The position numbers were made by a program, and so were the translations under genes. The notes below the pieces were generated by a model. It had not been told where the DNA came from, did no database searches, and was given only the letters and a program-made list of their open reading frames with translations. From positions 1 to 64,000 of the forward strand of contig JAFWBD010000012.1 of the NCBI GenBank assembly GCA_017507325.1: DNA of 64,000 bases, read 5' to 3'. Source of the stretch: Clostridia bacterium (GTDB taxonomy: Bacteria > Bacillota > Clostridia > Oscillospirales > SIG627). Shown here in pieces: positions 31,370-40,076 of this stretch. How positions within the stretch are numbered: position 1 is the first letter of the stretch; the number at the start of each line of letters is the position of its first letter.

Positions 31370-31398
31370 TTGTAATTTCAACGGCTTTATGCTATAAT
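31370..31398 (+). promoter_or_regulatory. Promoter for dnaE operon
   Basis: TTGTAA (31370-31375), 17-base spacer, TATAAT (31393-31398). Transcription would start near 31405, about 70 bases before dnaE. A weaker alternative is TGATAC-17-TATTAT (31412-31440). Confidence 0.65.
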
Positions 31399-31435: not shown

Positions 31436-31464
31436 ATTATAATACGAAAAGTAAATTCTGTCAA
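31436..31464 (-). promoter_or_regulatory. Consensus promoter for the thioesterase-tgt-rlmL-dat operon
   Basis: Minus-strand TTGACA (31464-31459), 17-base spacer, TATAAT (31441-31436): a full consensus match. Transcription would start near 31430 and run through the opposing dnaE promoter. Confidence 0.88.
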
Positions 31465-31474
31465 AGGATTTTCT

Positions 31475-34400
31475 ATGAAAAACAAGGATTTTGTACATCT
31501 CCATTTGCACACGGAATATTCTCTTTTGGACGGTGCCTGCCGCATCGACCGTGTTTTTCAGCGGGCAAAGGAATTGGGACAAGAGGCGGTTGCCATCACC
31601 GATCACGGTGTGATGTACGGTGTGATTCAATTTTATAAGGCTGCCAAGAAAGCGGGCGTTCACCCGATCATCGGCTGTGAGGTATACGTTTCTCCCCGCG
31701 GGATGAGCCAAAAGGATGCGGTATTGGATCGGGATTACTCCCATTTGGTTTTGCTTTGTGAGAATATGACGGGCTACCGCAATCTGATTCAGATCACCAC
31801 CGCCGCCTTTACCGAGGGCTTTTATCAGAAGCCCCGCGTGGACTTGGAGTTTTTGAAAAAGCATTCCGAGGGGCTGATCGCTCTTTCCGCCTGCCTTGCG
31901 GGGCGGATCCCTCAACTCATTCTGGCGGGAGATGCCGCGGGAGCGGAGAAGCACGCACTGGAGCTGCGGGATATTTTCGGAGATCATTCTTTTTTTCTGG
32001 AATTGCAGGATCACGGGATCCCCGATCAGCTTCGGGTGAATTCCGCGCTGATCGCCCTATCCAAAAAAACGGGCATTCCCACGGTTGCCACCAACGACGT
32101 ACACTATCTGACCCGCAAGGATGCCAAATCCCACGATGCGCTTCTTTGCATTCAAACGGGAAAGCAAATGCAGGATCAGGATCGGATGCGATTTGAGACG
32201 GACGAATTTTATTTAAAATCCGCCGAGGAAATGGCCGCCCTCTTCCCGAAAAATCCCGAAGCTCTGAAGAACACGCTTCGAATTGCCGAGCGCTGTCGGG
32301 TAGATTTTGACTTTACCGAGGCCCACCTTCCGCATTTTCAAAATCCGCTGGGACTTTCCTCCGGAGAATACCTGGCGGAGCTTTCCCGGAAAGGATTGGA
32401 AAAGCGCCTCCGGGAAAACGGAATTCAAGAAAACTCCGCCTATGAAAAGAGACTTCGTTACGAATTGAAAACCGTCGAAAAGATGGGCTTTTCCGATTAT
32501 TTTCTCATTGTGGCGGATTTTGTGGGCTTTGCCAAAAAAAGCGGTATTTACGTAGGTCCCGGCAGAGGAAGCGGTGCGGGATCCTTGGCGGCCTGGTGCC
32601 TGGGGATCACGGAATTGGATCCAATAAAAAACGGGTTGATCTTTGAGCGCTTTTTGAATCCCGAGCGCGTTTCTATGCCTGATTTTGATATTGATTTCTG
32701 CAAGGAACGCCGCTTTGAGGTGGTGGAATACATCACTCAAAAATACGGAAGGGATCACGTTTCTCAGATCGTTACCTTCAGTACCATGGCCGCCAGAGCC
32801 GTTGTGCGGGATGTGGGGCGGGTAATGGGGATGCCCTACCAAGAGGTCGATAAGATCGTAAAAAAGATCCCGCACTTTTTGGATATGACCTTGGAAAAGG
32901 CTCTTGCGGGAGATGCTGAGCTTCGAGCACAATGCGAGAGCGGCCAAGCCAAGGAGCTGATGGAGATTGCCAAGGCACTGGAGGGCATGCCCCGCAACGC
33001 TTCCATTCACGCCGCAGGCATCGTGCTGACCGACAGGCCCGTTTCCGAATACGTGCCCTTGGCGGTGAACAGCGGAAGCACCGTGACGCAGTTTACCATG
33101 AACGAGCTTTCGGACTTGGGTCTTTTGAAGATCGATCTTTTGGGTCTGCGGTATCTGACCATTCTGCGGGATGCCGAGGAGCAGATCCGTCAAAGCATTC
33201 CCGATTTTTCTTATCAAAGCATTCCGCTCGATGACCGCGAAACCTTCCGTATGATCTCAGAGGGGAAAACGGCGGGAATGTTTCAGATCGAATCCTCGGG
33301 AATGAAGGCCTTGATGCTTCAGATGAAGCCGCAAAGCGTGGAGGACATTACCGCTGCCATTGCGCTGTATCGCCCCGGACCCAAGGACTCGATCCCCCGA
33401 TTTCTGGAGAATCGCGCCAAGGGTGTTTACGGCCATGAGATCTCGGAGATCTCCGATATTCTTGCGGGAACCCACGGATGCATCGTGTATCAGGAGCAGG
33501 TGATGGAGATCTTCCGCCGTTTGGCGGGCTACTCCTTCGGCCGAGCCGATATCGTCCGCCGTGCCATGTCCAAAAAGAAGCAGGAGGCGATGCTTCGGGA
33601 ACGGGAAATCTTTTTAAACGGACTGACGGACGAATCGGGGAACGTTCTCATTCCCGGTGCCCTTCGGAACGGGATCGAGGAAGAAAAGGCCGACAAGATC
33701 TTTCGGGATATGGAAAAGTTTGCGGAATACGCCTTCAACAAATCCCACGCCGCCGCTTACGCTCTTTTAAGCTACCGAACCGCCTATTTGAAATGCCGAT
33801 TTCCCAAGGAATATATGGCGGCCATTCTGACCAATCAATTGGGCAGTGAAAAATACAGCTATTATTTTTCCGAGTGCCAGCAAATGGGCATTTCCATTCT
33901 GCCGCCCGATATCAATCACAGCCGCTTTTCCTTTTCCGTGGACAAAGATGCTTTGCGCTTCGGACTTGTGGGGATCAAAAACGTCGGAGACAATCTGATT
34001 CAGACGATTTTTGAGGAGAGAAGCCGCTCCCCCTTTGCCTCTTTCCGCGATTTCACCCGCCGCTTGCGGGGAAAGGGACTGAACCGCAAGGCGCTGGAAA
34101 GCCTCGTTCTTTCCGGGGCTATGGATTCCTTCGGACAAAAACGATCCGTGCTCTTTGCCGCCATCGAATCGGAATTGGATCTGGCGCGGGACACCGAGCG
34201 TATGGCCATTCCCGGTCAAATCAGCCTTTTTGATCTGACCCCCGCCGTTCCCGCCGCCGCAGCCGAAGAGGAATATCCCGATATTCCCGAGTTTTCCCAA
34301 AAGGAATTGCTGCAGGGAGAAAAAAACGTTTGCGGCGTTTATTTGTCAGGCCATCCCCTCCAGGGCTATACCGAGCTTGCCAAGAAAATCGGTGCCACCG

Positions 34401-35005
34401 AGATCCTCTCCTTCCGTACCGAAGGGGAGCGCTTTGCCGACGGAGATCGGATTTGCCTTTTGTGTCTGGTGGGCGCAGTCGTCCTCAAGCCCGTCAAATC
34501 GGGCGGAAAAATGGCCTTTTTGCAGGGCGAGGATCAAAGCGGGATTTGCGAGATCATCGTATTCCCAAAGGTTCTGGAAAAAACCTCTCCCATGCCCGAG
34601 GCGGGAAGCATCGTCACCGTTTACGGCAGGATCAACACCAAGGATGAAGAGATCAAGATCCTTGCCGATCAGATCCTCCCTCCCGAAAAAAGCATACCTC
34701 TTTCGGCAAAGACGGCCCCCGCTTCCGAGAAAAAGAGCGGCAAACCCGAAATTGTTGGAAATTCTCCCATAAATTTTCAATCTGTTTCCAAAATATTCTT
34801 GCGTTTCCCCGAAAAAAGGAGTAAAATAGAAAAACGGGTTTTGGCGTTGCTTCACATTTTCCCGGGAAGCATCCCTTGCTATTTTTATTACGCCGATTCC
34901 GGGAAGCTGTTTCATATTGCCGGGCTTTCCTGCTCCCTCTCTCCGAAAATCTATCGGGAGCTGACGGAGCTGGTGGGAAGCGAAAACATCAATTTGAAGT
35001 TTTGA
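31475..35005 (+). CDS. dnaE: DNA polymerase III alpha subunit (DnaE type)
   Basis: Replicative polymerase of 1176 aa. It has an N-terminal PHP domain (HLHLHTEYSLLDG; ITDHGVMYG), a C-family palm with the catalytic acids in MPDFDIDFC (near residue 400), finger motifs GPGRGSGAGSLAAW and IALYRPGPKDSIPRFLENR, a helix-hairpin-helix region, and an OB-fold near 1000. The last 80 residues resemble the OB-following tail of DnaE1. No DnaQ-type exonuclease insertion is present, so it is DnaE and not PolC. The ATG at 31475 follows AAAGGA by 6 bases. Confidence 0.96.
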   Translation: MKNKDFVHLHLHTEYSLLDGACRIDRVFQRAKELGQEAVAITDHGVMYGVIQFYKAAKKAGVHPIIGCEVYVSPRGMSQKDAVLDRDYSHLVLLCENMTGYRNLIQITTAAFTEGFYQKPRVDLEFLKKHSEGLIALSACLAGRIPQLILAGDAAGAEKHALELRDIFGDHSFFLELQDHGIPDQLRVNSALIALSKKTGIPTVATNDVHYLTRKDAKSHDALLCIQTGKQMQDQDRMRFETDEFYLKSAEEMAALFPKNPEALKNTLRIAERCRVDFDFTEAHLPHFQNPLGLSSGEYLAELSRKGLEKRLRENGIQENSAYEKRLRYELKTVEKMGFSDYFLIVADFVGFAKKSGIYVGPGRGSGAGSLAAWCLGITELDPIKNGLIFERFLNPERVSMPDFDIDFCKERRFEVVEYITQKYGRDHVSQIVTFSTMAARAVVRDVGRVMGMPYQEVDKIVKKIPHFLDMTLEKALAGDAELRAQCESGQAKELMEIAKALEGMPRNASIHAAGIVLTDRPVSEYVPLAVNSGSTVTQFTMNELSDLGLLKIDLLGLRYLTILRDAEEQIRQSIPDFSYQSIPLDDRETFRMISEGKTAGMFQIESSGMKALMLQMKPQSVEDITAAIALYRPGPKDSIPRFLENRAKGVYGHEISEISDILAGTHGCIVYQEQVMEIFRRLAGYSFGRADIVRRAMSKKKQEAMLREREIFLNGLTDESGNVLIPGALRNGIEEEKADKIFRDMEKFAEYAFNKSHAAAYALLSYRTAYLKCRFPKEYMAAILTNQLGSEKYSYYFSECQQMGISILPPDINHSRFSFSVDKDALRFGLVGIKNVGDNLIQTIFEERSRSPFASFRDFTRRLRGKGLNRKALESLVLSGAMDSFGQKRSVLFAAIESELDLARDTERMAIPGQISLFDLTPAVPAAAAEEEYPDIPEFSQKELLQGEKNVCGVYLSGHPLQGYTELAKKIGATEILSFRTEGERFADGDRICLLCLVGAVVLKPVKSGGKMAFLQGEDQSGICEIIVFPKVLEKTSPMPEAGSIVTVYGRINTKDEEIKILADQILPPEKSIPLSAKTAPASEKKSGKPEIVGNSPINFQSVSKIFLRFPEKRSKIEKRVLALLHIFPGSIPCYFYYADSGKLFHIAGLSCSLSPKIYRELTELVGSENINLKF

Positions 35006-35044: not shown

Positions 35045-37636
35045 ATGAAAAAACAAAAACAACCTCAAAGAAGAGAGAACAATCCCTTCTCCTCCTCTCC
35101 CATCGGCCGAAGGAGCGGTAAGGACGGCATCTTTCTTCGGATCCTAAAAAAGATCCTGAGCAAAAAGGTCTTTCTTTTTCTGGCAAAGGCCATTGGGCGG
35201 ATCATTTCCACCCTATCGAAATACGCGGGAAAGATCGTTACCTACACCCTGAACGTGGTTCTGACCGTGATGCTCATCGGCATCATTACCGGATCGGCCG
35301 TCGCCTGCGCTCTGGTGATCTATATCAAAAACTACGTGGATCCCGTTTACGACATTCACGATCTGAGAACCGATTCCAGCCTCAGCACCTTCCTCTATTA
35401 TCAGGATAAGAAAGAGGACGGAAGCGTGGAATGGGTAGAGTGGGAGGAGGAACGCATCTACGGCACCGAAAACCGTATGTGGGTCTCTTACGATGAAATG
35501 CCCGAGGATCTCATCAATGCCTTCGTTTCCATTGAAGATAAGCGATTTTTCACCCATCCGGGCATTGACATCCGCCGAACCACCGGTGCGATGCTGGGCT
35601 TTCTGACGGGAAACGATTCCTACGGCGGCTCCACCATCACCCAACAGCTGATCAAAAACGTTACCGGTGAGGATGACGTTACCATTCAAAGAAAGATTCA
35701 GGAAATTCTGCGCGCGCTGAACCTGGAGGGAAAGCGCTCCAAGCAGGAAATTCTGGAAATGTATCTGAACACCATTTATCTTTACAACAACTGCTACGGT
35801 GTTTCCGCCGCCGCCTATGAGTATTTCGGAAAAGAGGTTTCCGAATTGACTTTGGTGGAATGTGCGGCTCTGGCCTCCATTCCCCAGAACCCGTCCCGTT
35901 GGAATCCCGCCTCCAATCCCGAGGGGAACGCGGAGCGCAGATGGGTGGTTCTGGAGGAAATGCTGAAAAATTCCGATATTGACAAAACCTATTCCGAAGC
36001 GGAGATCCGAGCGGCTCAAGAGGAGGAATTGGTTCTTTATCAGGGAGACGGCGAAAACGAAAAATCCACCAAGGTCCACAGCTGGTTTGTGGATACGGTG
36101 ATCTTTGATATCGTGGAAGATCTCAAAGAAACCTACGGCTATGACGAGCAGACCGCAAAGAATCTTCTGTACAGCGGCGGCTTGAGCATTTACACCACCA
36201 TTGACCGTGACATTCAAGCAAAGCTTGACGAGATCTATTGCAATGACGAGCTCTTCCCCTCTCACGGCGTAGGCGTTCAGGTGGAATCCGCTATGACCAT
36301 TATGGATCAGAAAACGGGACACATCGTTGCCATTATCGGCGGCCGCGGGGAAAAAACGACTCCTCTGGGCTTCAACCGTGCCACCATGGCAGACCGTCAG
36401 CCCGGATCCTCCATCAAGCCTCTGGCCTCATACAGCATTGCCCTGGAAAAGGGGCTGATCAACTATTCCACCGTTTTGGACGATACGCCCTTTATGATTG
36501 ATAAGGAAGAGGGCAGCACCTGGCCGAACAACTGGAACTACCGTTACGACGGACTTTGCACCGTGGCTCAGGCGGTTCGTGATTCCAAAAACACCATTGC
36601 GGTGAAGGTTGTGGATCTGATCGGAGTCAAAAACTCTTATAATTTTTTGGTGAACAAATACCGTCTTTCCTCTCTGGTGGCTGACGATATGAACTACGCC
36701 CCCTTGGGCCTCGGCGGCTTTACCAACGGCGTGAAGAACCGTGAAATGACCAACGCCTACGCCGCCATTGCCAACAACGGCGTTTTTGTGGAATCCACCA
36801 CTTACACCAAGGTGCTTGATTCTACGGGCAACGTGATCCTGGATAAGACCGTTCCCGATTCCGAGATCATTTTAAGCGAGGATACCTGCGCGGTTATGAC
36901 AAAGCTTCTGCAGGAGGTCGTCACCTCCGGTACGGGTACTGCGGTTTCCCTTCGCCGCCAAGTGGACGTGGCGGGAAAAACCGGTACCACACAAAATGAC
37001 CGTGACCTGTATTTCTGCGGCTACACCCCCTACTACACCGCTTCCTGCTGGGTAGGCTACGACAACCCCCGTTCTCTGACCAACTTCACCTCGGGGCAAA
37101 CCAGAGTTGCCGCCGCTACCTTTATCTGGAACGAGGTGATGACAGCCATTCATCAGGATATCATTGCCTCGGGATCCGTTAAGAAATTTTCGGATTCTCT
37201 GACCAAGAATCTGATCCCCCGAGTCTTTTGCATCGATTCCGGCCTGATTCCCTCGGAAATCTGTGCCTTGGACGTTCGTTCCTCCAACCGCTTTGCCACG
37301 GGCTACTATACCCTTTCCAATATGCCCACCGAAACTTGCAACCGGCACGTTGCGGTCTCCTATTGCACCGATACGGGCAAGGTTGCCGGGCCCGGGTGCA
37401 CCAACATTCGCCCTGCGGCCCTGGTGGAATACAGCCGGAAGTTTGAATTGGATCTGATCATTCCCGATGCGCAGTACACCTATATGCGCTTGCCCTTGGG
37501 GGTCAAATATTCCAAAGATCCCTCTCAATCGCCCTATATCTGGGCCTACGAGCCCGAGACCTATCCCGGTCGATCCAACACCCGAACGCAAGCCAACGCC
37601 TTCTGCGCCTATCACAATCCGGAGCTTTGTGAATGA
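35045..37636 (+). CDS. Class A penicillin-binding protein (PBP1A-like)
   Basis: An 863-aa bifunctional peptidoglycan synthase. It has a basic cytoplasmic tail, one membrane helix (about 70-100), and a GT51 glycosyltransferase with VSIEDKRFFTHPGID (catalytic Glu near 164) and GGSTITQQLIKN. The transpeptidase has SSIK (Ser near 454), SKN, and KTGTTQND (near 643). It lies outside the membrane, polymerising and cross-linking glycan strands. The ATG at 35045 follows AGGAG by 5 bases. It overlaps tadA by ATGA. Confidence 0.94.
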   Translation: MKKQKQPQRRENNPFSSSPIGRRSGKDGIFLRILKKILSKKVFLFLAKAIGRIISTLSKYAGKIVTYTLNVVLTVMLIGIITGSAVACALVIYIKNYVDPVYDIHDLRTDSSLSTFLYYQDKKEDGSVEWVEWEEERIYGTENRMWVSYDEMPEDLINAFVSIEDKRFFTHPGIDIRRTTGAMLGFLTGNDSYGGSTITQQLIKNVTGEDDVTIQRKIQEILRALNLEGKRSKQEILEMYLNTIYLYNNCYGVSAAAYEYFGKEVSELTLVECAALASIPQNPSRWNPASNPEGNAERRWVVLEEMLKNSDIDKTYSEAEIRAAQEEELVLYQGDGENEKSTKVHSWFVDTVIFDIVEDLKETYGYDEQTAKNLLYSGGLSIYTTIDRDIQAKLDEIYCNDELFPSHGVGVQVESAMTIMDQKTGHIVAIIGGRGEKTTPLGFNRATMADRQPGSSIKPLASYSIALEKGLINYSTVLDDTPFMIDKEEGSTWPNNWNYRYDGLCTVAQAVRDSKNTIAVKVVDLIGVKNSYNFLVNKYRLSSLVADDMNYAPLGLGGFTNGVKNREMTNAYAAIANNGVFVESTTYTKVLDSTGNVILDKTVPDSEIILSEDTCAVMTKLLQEVVTSGTGTAVSLRRQVDVAGKTGTTQNDRDLYFCGYTPYYTASCWVGYDNPRSLTNFTSGQTRVAAATFIWNEVMTAIHQDIIASGSVKKFSDSLTKNLIPRVFCIDSGLIPSEICALDVRSSNRFATGYYTLSNMPTETCNRHVAVSYCTDTGKVAGPGCTNIRPAALVEYSRKFELDLIIPDAQYTYMRLPLGVKYSKDPSQSPYIWAYEPETYPGRSNTRTQANAFCAYHNPELCE

Positions 37637-38103
37637 CGCGGGAAGAAAAATTCATGCGGGCGGCTCTGCGGGAGGCCGAAAAGGCCGCCTCGGAGGGCGA
37701 GGTTCCCATCGGATGTGTGATCGTAAAGGATGACCGCATCATTGCAAGAGGGAGAAACGCAAGGGAAACGAAAAAAAACGCCCTTTGCCATGCGGAGATC
37801 GCCGCCATTCACAAGGCCTGCCGAAAGCTCGGAGGCTGGCGGCTCTGGCAATGCGAGATGTACGTCACCTTAGAGCCCTGCCCCATGTGTGCGGGGGCCA
37901 TTATCAACGCACGCCTGAAAAAAGTCTTCATCGGCGCTCTTGACCCCAAGGGCGGTGCTATGGGCAGTGTAACCGATTTGAGCGAGCTGCCCTTCAATCA
38001 CAAGCCGATTACCGAATACGGATTGCTGCAGGAGCAATCAAAACAGCTTTTGCAGGATTTCTTCATTCGGCTTCGAAGAAAAAAAGAAAATAAAACAGAG
38101 TAG
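37633..38103 (+). CDS. tadA: tRNA adenosine(34) deaminase TadA
   Basis: A 156-aa zinc deaminase that makes inosine-34 in tRNA-Arg(ACG). The signature HAEIAAI (His near 53, catalytic Glu) and PCPMCAGAI (Cys near 83 and 86) are complete. It starts inside the PBP stop (ATGA). Its last codons overlap the 5' edge of the THF aptamer. Confidence 0.95.
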   Translation: MTREEKFMRAALREAEKAASEGEVPIGCVIVKDDRIIARGRNARETKKNALCHAEIAAIHKACRKLGGWRLWQCEMYVTLEPCPMCAGAIINARLKKVFIGALDPKGGAMGSVTDLSELPFNHKPITEYGLLQEQSKQLLQDFFIRLRRKKENKTE

Positions 38104-38190
38104 ATGCCCAAGCGTTAAGTGCCCGAGAAACGGGGAGTTGTTCTCGGGACGAAAAGATTGATCTTGCGGTTTGAGCATCGCATCCCGCTG
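38096..38190 (+). promoter_or_regulatory. Tetrahydrofolate (THF) riboswitch aptamer
   Basis: The conserved pieces of the folT-type THF riboswitch are present in order: GAGTAGATG, GCGTTAAGTG, and GCATCGCATCCCGCT at the 3' side. Stems can be drawn: CAG/CTG (38096-38098 with 38188-38190), GATGC/GCATC (38103-38107 with 38175-38179), CCCGAGAA/TTCTCGGG (38122-38129 with 38141-38148). It sits directly before a folate S-component gene, which agrees with the ligand. The 5' edge overlaps the tadA stop codon. Confidence 0.9.
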
Positions 38191-38204
38191 CCGAAGAAGG
38201 ATTG

Positions 38205-38256
38205 CCTCCTTTTCCGGTTTTCCCTTGGGAAAAAAGCGGAAAAGGAGGTATTTTTT
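38205..38256 (+). terminator. Riboswitch expression platform: terminator that also buries the folT ribosome binding site
   Basis: A 12-bp perfect stem CCTCCTTTTCCG (38205-38216) / CGGAAAAGGAGG (38237-38248) is followed by TATTTTTT and then the ATG at 38257. The right arm contains the AGGAGG of folT. The hairpin can therefore both stop transcription and hide the ribosome binding site when THF is bound (mechanism inferred). Confidence 0.85.
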
Positions 38257-38790
38257 ATGAAAAAAAAGGCAAAAGCATTTTCCAGCGTCAAGGTTCTAAC
38301 CACGGGTGCCATGCTGACGGCCCTAAGCATCGTCATCGGAATTTTCTGCAAAAACTATTTGAATTTCGGGAACGGGCTGTTCCGCGTGACCTTTGAAAAT
38401 TTCCCCATCATCCTCTCGGGTATTTTGTTCGGACCCGTTGTGGGAGCCCTGGTGGGGGTGTGCTCTGACGTTCTCAGCTACGTTCTTTCCACACAAAGTC
38501 TTGCGATCTCCCCTCTTGTAACCTTGGGCGCTGCGGCGGTGGGCGCGGTTTCCGGTCTGATCTCTCACTACGTTGTGAAAAAGGGCGGCTATCTGCGTCT
38601 TCTGATCTCTGCGGTAGCGGCACATTTGACCGGCTCGATCCTGATCAAATCCATCGGTCTGTTTGCTTATTACGGCATTGCCGTGCTCTGGAGAATCCCC
38701 GTTTATGCGGGAATCGTAATTTTAGAATCTCTTCTGATCCATCTGATGTATCAGAATTCCGCCTTCCGTCAATTTTTTCAGTGGAAATGA
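38257..38790 (+). CDS. folT: Folate-specific ECF transporter S component (FolT-like)
   Basis: A 177-aa six-helix membrane protein that captures folates and pairs with EcfT/EcfA1/EcfA2. The stretch RVTFENFPIILSGILFGP with a following GALVGVCSDVLSY is characteristic of FolT-type S components. The start at 38257 is set by AGGAGG 8 bases upstream and by the riboswitch, which would lie inside any longer form. The partner ecfA1-ecfA2-ecfT genes are at 12-15 kb in this window. Confidence 0.9.
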   Translation: MKKKAKAFSSVKVLTTGAMLTALSIVIGIFCKNYLNFGNGLFRVTFENFPIILSGILFGPVVGALVGVCSDVLSYVLSTQSLAISPLVTLGAAAVGAVSGLISHYVVKKGGYLRLLISAVAAHLTGSILIKSIGLFAYYGIAVLWRIPVYAGIVILESLLIHLMYQNSAFRQFFQWK

Positions 38791-38798
38791 GGCTTAAG

Positions 38799-40076
38799 AT
38801 GACCTATCAAGAAGCATTATCGTACATTCATTCCAATTTCTGGCAGGGCTCCCGCCCCGGGCTTTCCCGCACCGAGGAGCTTTTACGCCGCATCGGAAAT
38901 CCCCAAGACAAGCTTCGCTTCGTTCACGTGGCAGGAACCAACGGAAAGGGCTCCTTCTGCGCTATGCTTTCCTCCGTATTGCTGGAGGCGGGATACCGCG
39001 TCGGCACGTACACCTCTCCTTACATTCTGCGTTTTAACGAGAGAATGAAAATGAACGGGGTCGATATTCCCGACGAAACCTTGGCGGAGCTGACGGATTT
39101 TATTCGTCCTCATGCTGAGGCCATGGAGGATAAGCCAACGGAATTTGAATTGATCACCGCCATTGCCATGGAATATTTCGTTCGCGAAAAGAGCGATATC
39201 GTGGTTTTGGAATGCGGCATGGGAGGGCGGCTGGACTCCACCAACGTCATTCAAACCCCTCTGCTTTCGGTGATTACGGGCATATCCTTGGATCATACCG
39301 CTTTTTTGGGAGATACGGTGGAAAAAATTGCCTTTGAGAAGGCAGGGATCATCAAAAAGGATATTCCGATTTTGTATTGCGGCAAGGATCCTATTGCCAA
39401 AGAGGTGATCTCATCTCGCGCCGCTTCCCTTTCTGCCCCCTTTTATCAGGTGGATCGCTCCTCTTTTCGACTTCTTTCGGCCGATCAAGAGGGCAGTGAT
39501 TTCTCTTACGGCTCTTATGAAAAGCTCCACATTCCCCTTTTGGGTACGTATCAGCCCGAAAACGCACAGAACGTCCTGACCGCCCTTCAGCTTTTACAAA
39601 AAGGCGGAATTGTCATCGGGGAGGACGCTGTTCGCCGTGGGCTGGAATCGGTCCGCTGGCCTGCCAGATTTGAAAGGATCCGCAAGGATCCCGTCATCAT
39701 TTGCGACGGCGGTCACAATCCCGAGGGCATTGATTGTGCGGTAGACAGCGCAAAGCTCTATTTTCCGACTCAAAAGCTCCTTCTGGTTTGCGGTGTGATG
39801 GCGGACAAGGATTACCCCTACATGGTCAAAAAACTCTCCGAAATCGCAAAAGAAGCCCATTGCTTAAAGCCTCAGAACCCCCGTGCCCTTGCCGCAGAGG
39901 ATATGGCCGCCGAATTTCGGAAGCACGGTACGCACGCGATCCCCTACACCGCCTGCGAGGATGCCCTGCAGGATGCCGTCTGCAAGGCAAAAAAAGAGAA
40001 TCTTCCCATTTTATGCGTAGGCTCGCTGTACTTTTACGGTGAGGTGGTAGCGGCCTTGGAAAAGCTGGGGCTGTAA
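38799..40076 (+). CDS. folC: Folylpolyglutamate synthase / dihydrofolate synthase
   Basis: A 425-aa Mur-ligase-like enzyme that adds glutamates to folates, trapping imported folate. The P-loop GTNGKGS (46-52) is clear, followed by SPYILRFNERM, ECGMGGRLDSTN and TGISLDHTAFLG, all typical of FolC. The ATG at 38799 follows GAGG by 6 bases, 8 bases after the folT stop. No other folate-synthesis gene is nearby, so use in salvage is the simplest reading. Confidence 0.94.
   Translation: MTYQEALSYIHSNFWQGSRPGLSRTEELLRRIGNPQDKLRFVHVAGTNGKGSFCAMLSSVLLEAGYRVGTYTSPYILRFNERMKMNGVDIPDETLAELTDFIRPHAEAMEDKPTEFELITAIAMEYFVREKSDIVVLECGMGGRLDSTNVIQTPLLSVITGISLDHTAFLGDTVEKIAFEKAGIIKKDIPILYCGKDPIAKEVISSRAASLSAPFYQVDRSSFRLLSADQEGSDFSYGSYEKLHIPLLGTYQPENAQNVLTALQLLQKGGIVIGEDAVRRGLESVRWPARFERIRKDPVIICDGGHNPEGIDCAVDSAKLYFPTQKLLLVCGVMADKDYPYMVKKLSEIAKEAHCLKPQNPRALAAEDMAAEFRKHGTHAIPYTACEDALQDAVCKAKKENLPILCVGSLYFYGEVVAALEKLGL

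Follow-up and report, generated by a model that had tools for sequence, protein, structure and literature searches.

Riboswitches that respond to tetrahydrofolate (THF) have folT, folC, and folE among their described targets (PMC9881143). In the aptamer, loop L3 forms a pseudoknot with the junction adjoining helix P1 (PMC9881143; PMC11477058), and THF bound at the pseudoknot site stabilizes P1; the pterin ring is part of a tetrad that includes U7, while A8 takes part in a ligand-dependent triple (PMC11477058). C. difficile is described as having no THF riboswitches (PMC11477304). An arrangement in which the downstream strand of a terminator hairpin carries the ribosome-binding site, at most 10 nt before the start codon, has been termed a "dual expression platform," in which transcription is attenuated and, failing that, translation (Barrick and Breaker 2007; PMC2258182); the passages of that paper devoted to platforms do not include the THF class. 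A structured RNA located among the genes of an operon, where it sets readthrough into the distal genes, is also known: the EAR element of the B. subtilis eps operon, which is described as a processive antiterminator and not a metabolite riboswitch (PMC7858274). The locus reported here shares with EAR its position among operon genes, but is predicted to attenuate.

The stretch of DNA analyzed (the window; 64,000 nt) carries a row of five genes on the + strand. These are dnaE, encoding the alpha subunit of DNA polymerase III (31475–35005; NF005298, 1482 bits); a gene for a class A penicillin-binding protein (PBP) of the PBP1A family (35045–37636; TIGR02074, 520 bits); a tadA-like tRNA adenosine deaminase gene (37633–38103; PF14437 and PF00383, with a score to NF008113 of 133.7 bits, below the cut-off of 150); folT, encoding a folate-family ECF transporter S component (38257–38790; TIGR04518, 83.8 bits, cut-off 60); and folC (38781–40076; TIGR01499, 383 bits). 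The PBP and tadA genes overlap in the sequence ATGA, and 153 nt separate tadA from folT. The start of folC is uncertain, with candidates at GTG 38781, at ATG 38787 (where the folT stop and the folC start would share ATGA), and at ATG 38799 (with GAGG upstream).

A covariance-model search confirmed the original prediction that a THF riboswitch precedes folT. The Rfam THF model (RF01831) matches 38094–38192 on the + strand over its full length (model positions 1–99), with 89.6 bits against a gathering cut-off of 36 (E = 1.4e-19); this is the sole Rfam match within the 64 kb at gathering thresholds and the single THF match in the source genome assembly (1.64 Mb, 63% complete). Judged by its sequence, the element is a genuine THF-I riboswitch, which would be expected to bind THF. 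Helices P2, P3, and P4 are supported by covariation among the six members of the genus, in which 16 of 43 consensus pairs, chiefly in these helices, show changes on both sides (RNAalifold). The L3 motif, ACGGGGAGTTG, occupies 38130–38140; GGGA at 38133–38136 is complementary to UCCC at 38183–38186, and the two could pair in what would be the pseudoknot between L3 and the junction, both being invariant in the genus and hence giving no covariation. In its full-length aptamer, covarying helices, L3 and junction motifs, and downstream folate genes (folT by TIGR04518 and folC by TIGR01499), the locus resembles other THF-I riboswitches (RF01831). It is unlike them in lying behind tadA, in lacking a −10-like hexamer of its own, in having P1 within the tadA reading frame, and in the shortness of P1.

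According to the Rfam alignment, P1 comprises three canonical pairs in the window (38096–38098 with 38188–38190), its two outer pairs being non-standard, whereas 97 of 141 loci from other genera have four to five pairs. The 5′ strand, CAG (38096–38098, + strand), lies inside the tadA codons ACA-GAG, so that the first stem of the aptamer does begin within the last codons of tadA, as had been proposed. The 3′ strand is CTG (38188–38190, + strand), and its G38190 is common to the antiterminator described below. P1 is invariant in the genus alignment; it is absent from the plain minimum free energy (MFE) folds of the window and from the RNAalifold consensus of the genus, and its basis is the Rfam model.

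THF matches were found in 206 of 295 genomes of the order; among the order matches listed, G113, G119, and G178 carry two THF riboswitches each. For comparison, 147 loci were used, consisting of 19 from the family, 28 more from the search of the order, and 100 that were retrieved; because they were taken from the matches listed, the set is biased to good scorers. Of the listed matches, G289:C176, G119:C2, G066:C63, G087:C215, G178:C125, G219, and G224 were left out. Six of the 147 belong to the genus, including the window, and 141 to other genera.

Downstream of the aptamer, a 12-bp stem is formed by a 5′ arm, CCTCCTTTTCCG (38205–38216, + strand; nascent-RNA folds and genus consensus fold), and a 3′ arm, CGGAAAAGGAGG (38237–38248, + strand; nascent-RNA folds), which contains the Shine-Dalgarno sequence (SD) AGGAGG at 38243–38248. 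The stem is closed by 20 nt holding an inner hairpin and is followed by a U-rich tail, TATTTTTT (38249–38256, + strand), which is also the spacer between the SD and the folT ATG at 38257; the original prediction had described the same stem, with AGGAGG in it and a U-run ending at the ATG. The stem is nearly invariant in the genus, with one pair changed on both sides (RNAalifold). Here the downstream strand of the hairpin carries the ribosome site, 8 nt from the start codon, and the layout has no essential difference from the dual platform as set out in the relevant passages of PMC2258182. Among the 147 loci, 89 combine a sequestered SD and an SD–ATG spacer whose T-run is four or longer, 25 have a sequestered SD only, seven a T-run with a free SD, and 15 neither, while 11 had no SD or start by the rule used and were scored as misses; starts were chosen automatically, and those of L101, L109, and L122 (TTG far downstream) are probably wrong. 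At the family level, both features are present in 16 of 19 loci and a sequestered SD in 18 of 19.

A control with matching SD types (AGGAGG or GGAGG, ATG, and an open reading frame [ORF] of at least 120 aa; overlapping loci may double-count some genes) found the SD sequestered and a T-run present for 69 of the 111 genes preceded by a THF riboswitch versus nine of 159 other genes. Taken by itself, sequestration of the SD in the MFE fold is frequent with or without a preceding riboswitch (91 of 111 and 93 of 159, respectively), and it is the T-run that separates the two groups (81 of 111 spacers versus 12 of 159). The counts show that most THF riboswitches in the 147 loci use a predicted dual terminator/SD platform. 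The suggestion that one hairpin can block both transcription and translation is supported by this anatomy and by its recurrence in relatives, and the hairpin would be expected to terminate transcription in vivo. An SD built into the terminator is present as originally predicted, but it is frequent in the order, already described, and not a peculiarity of this locus.

The original prediction named no antiterminator, without which control by the ligand would go unexplained; we correct it by adding one. In MFE folds of the nascent RNA with 3′ ends from 38220 to 38240, a predicted 5′ strand, GCCG-A-AGAAGGA (38190–38201, + strand), pairs with a 3′ strand, TCCTTTT-C-CGGT (38207–38218, + strand), that overlaps the upstream arm of the terminator; once the RNA extends to 38245, the terminator replaces this pairing. 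In calculations without pseudoknot or ligand, the antiterminator fold is better than the fold with P1 intact by 2.1 kcal/mol at 38225 (−41.0 versus −38.9), 1.4 kcal/mol at 38236 (−44.4 versus −43.0), and 7.0 kcal/mol at 38242 (−51.1 versus −44.1), and at 38256 the terminator is better than the antiterminator by 9.3 kcal/mol (−60.4 versus −51.1). Even in the absence of ligand, the MFE structure of the full-length RNA hides the SD, so that expression would require an antiterminator that is kept kinetically.

The antiterminator was compared with 100 shuffles of the linker at each of 91 loci, namely the 89 that combine both platform features (SD sequestration and T-run) together with L002 and L007. 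It fell within the best 5% of shuffles in 49 of the 91, with a median z of −1.97. In counts made without a shuffled control, the MFE fold pairs at least one base of the P1 3′ strand downstream in 79 of 91 loci and at least two in 73. The recurrence of the predicted element supports the usual OFF logic, according to which ligand binding would hold P1, and P1 in turn would break the antiterminator. Within the genus, three of six antiterminators reach the 5% level or better, and L002 (22%), L003 (44%), and L004 (60%) are clear misses. That of the window, taken alone, is not significant, since 8% of its linker shuffles are as good; it shares one canonical pair with P1 (G38190), and a fold with P1 forced leaves most of it intact. 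On these models the window is a weak example of an antiterminator linked to P1.

The gene order dnaE-PBP-tadA-THF riboswitch, followed by an ECF S-component gene at the position of folT and by folC, is present in the window and in all five congeners compared (G005, G001, G004, G002, and G003; the dnaE of G003, lying at the end of its contig, is partial). No tadA was found near the 13 THF loci of other genera of the family (flank at most 1.5 kb) or near 128 further THF loci of the order (flanks mostly 0.7 or 1.5 kb). Conversely, only one (L020, apparently the same as the G004 record) of 80 tadA loci from named genomes has folT or folC homologs at E 1e-6 or carries an exact copy of the THF core motif, several of these loci ending soon after tadA. 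As far as sampled, capture of a THF riboswitch behind tadA appears to belong to this genus. By title and start of abstract, no paper on a THF riboswitch overlapping an upstream gene was found among the matches listed from the open-licence literature; in PMC13273304 the word tetrahydrofolate is confined to the reference list.

The S-component gene itself varies among these relatives. FolT of the window is 69% identical (over 150 aa) to that of L007, 31%–36% identical to those of three other congeners, and 54%–57% identical to those of five out of six members of a second genus, while the ECF S component encoded between riboswitch and folC in L002 is a different one of 247 aa; the gene in this position seems, from these comparisons, to have been swapped repeatedly. 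By eye, a short inverted repeat is visible at the end of tadA before the aptamer in L006 and L014 (GTAAGCG..CGCTTAC and GTAAGG..CCTTAC) and not in the other four.

The THF-I riboswitch probably has a dual OFF platform and acts inside a longer operon as an internal attenuator of folT-folC. RNA polymerase from an upstream promoter would read dnaE, the PBP gene, and tadA, with the aptamer transcribed as the 3′ end of tadA. At low THF, the antiterminator (38190–38201 with 38207–38218) would capture the upstream terminator arm while the downstream arm is still being transcribed or has yet to be made, resulting in readthrough into folT-folC with the SD free. With THF bound, the pseudoknot and P1 would be held, the antiterminator would lose its P1 end, and the 12-bp hairpin would form; the hairpin would halt transcription at the U-run before the ATG or, if polymerase is already past, hide AGGAGG. 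Folate import and polyglutamylation would then be shut down while dnaE, the PBP gene, and tadA stay on. The original proposal of an internal attenuator in a dnaE-to-folC operon is strengthened by the conserved gene order, by the absence of a −10-like hexamer, and by a scan of the window that found no + strand terminator-like site at the dnaE/PBP and PBP/tadA junctions. A candidate operon promoter (TTGTAA-17-TATAAT with a TG extension; 31370–31398, + strand) was identified in the consensus scan 76 nt before the dnaE ATG, and is suggestive only, the 30–42-kb region having nine promoter-like sites against 8.3 expected by chance. Beside it, on the − strand, lies a perfect TTGACA-17-TATAAT (31436–31464) facing a divergent acyl-ACP thioesterase-like gene.

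If folT-folC instead had a promoter within tadA that is unlike the sigma-70 consensus, the two genes would form a separate unit and the overlap with tadA would be incidental. Such an arrangement would be in keeping with the other THF riboswitches of the order, of which 100 of 141 have a −10-like hexamer (identical to TATAAT at five or six positions) whose end lies no more than 20 nt before the aptamer, versus 97 of 564 shifted control windows. Within 40 nt the number rises to 112 of 141, and in 75 of these 112 the hexamer lies 6–13 nt before the aptamer, so that the stand-alone THF riboswitches of the order seem to start transcription at about the start of the aptamer. None of the six loci of the genus has a −10-like hexamer within 20 nt upstream, their best hexamers differing in sequence and position; the contrast with other genera gives a Fisher p of 0.0008, although the six congeners share ancestry and amount to one evolutionary event. 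In the window, the scan of 37.4–38.11 kb, which includes the 37.6–38.1-kb interval where a strong promoter would contradict the original prediction, found no promoter-like pair above the 99.5th percentile of the window. A weak GAAAAT/TTCATT pair directly before the aptamer scores 6.1, the best of the region; this equals that percentile and is unremarkable over some 700 positions. The scan covered sigma-70-type consensus sequences, which leaves some room for a separate promoter of another type; the conserved gene order and near-zero spacing from tadA argue against one. We consider a separate unit unlikely, and the riboswitch, placed behind tadA, apparently lacks its own promoter, as originally predicted.

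A nearby upstream gene alone does not go with loss of the −10-like hexamer, since 22 of 28 other-genus loci in which an ORF of at least 100 aa (some of them spurious) ends within 40 nt upstream keep it. THF riboswitches also lie 5–15 nt behind genes for an ECF S component (L146), a formate/nitrite transporter (L190), and phosphofructokinase (PFK; L188). Behind these confirmed upstream genes the −10 matches are 3/6, 3/6, and 5/6, respectively; they are 4/6 in L219 and L223, where the upstream PFK was called by eye.

The switch might also act on translation only, with the hairpin hiding the SD without terminating and the T-rich spacer not being a working terminator. In two members of the genus, L002 (ATTATTT) and L007 (TATTTCT), other bases break up the T-run but the whole SD remains paired; 25 of the 147 loci have the sequestered SD and no T-run, and the long closure of the 12-bp stem, 20 nt with its inner hairpin, would also suit such a design. 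A design of this kind needs no U-run, however, and T-runs of at least 4 accompany the sequestered SD in 89 of the 147 loci and mark the THF-preceded spacers in the control; we therefore regard control of translation alone as improbable, about as much so as a separate promoter. A further alternative begins from the tadA stop codon UAG (38101–38103, + strand), which consists of the conserved UA of J1/2 and the first base of P2. By order and numbering, its U and A would correspond to U7 and A8, the putative THF contacts. A ribosome terminating on tadA could cover P1, J1/2, and the start of P2 and prevent THF binding until its release, so that translation of tadA would favor folT-folC. Provided that the first ribosomes stay close behind the polymerase, translation of tadA would slow the folding of the aptamer. 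In E. coli, according to the results given in PMC4824070, the ribosome protects about 10 nt past the A site and represses terminators near stop codons; in the same source, termination was about 90% efficient with the terminator located 28 bp beyond the stop codon, and the distance from stop to terminator here is about 100 nt. In B. subtilis, transcription is stated to outrun translation and terminators to lie a few nucleotides beyond stop codons (reviewed in PMC7858274). The aptamer hexamer is GAGTAG in 120 of the 147 loci, GAGTAA in 24, AAGTAG in two, and GAGTAT in one, so that in 146 of the 147 it would supply a stop codon to one reading frame. In the genus, L005 (G001) resembles the window in how its tadA ends, and in the other four congeners the stop codon finishes at 0, −5, −10, and −15 from the start of the aptamer; the end of tadA thus ranges from −15 to +9, and only two of six members have the stop within the conserved motif. 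In other genera, L174 and L185 have upstream ORFs that extend to +9 of the aptamer; these were considered as stop-in-aptamer cases and rejected as chance frames with no Pfam match, and the upstream ORFs of L013 and L213 were likewise taken as chance frames. A ribosome blocking the THF pocket at the end of tadA is possible and not conserved, and we think it very unlikely. If it occurs, folate repression of folT-folC would be limited to transcripts with a ribosome-free tadA end, and one RNA would read both the folate level and the translation of an upstream housekeeping gene.

The preferred interpretation, an internal attenuator with a dual OFF platform, is built from parts of known kinds; its mechanism is not new, and the placement alone is unusual. 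Across the 147 loci of the order, a predicted antiterminator reaching P1 often accompanies the dual platform. These results should be useful for the annotation of folate uptake in uncultured Clostridia. They also suggest a route from a stand-alone riboswitch with its own start site to an internal operon attenuator, along which the neighborhood would have changed and the −10-like hexamer been lost, while aptamer and platform were retained.
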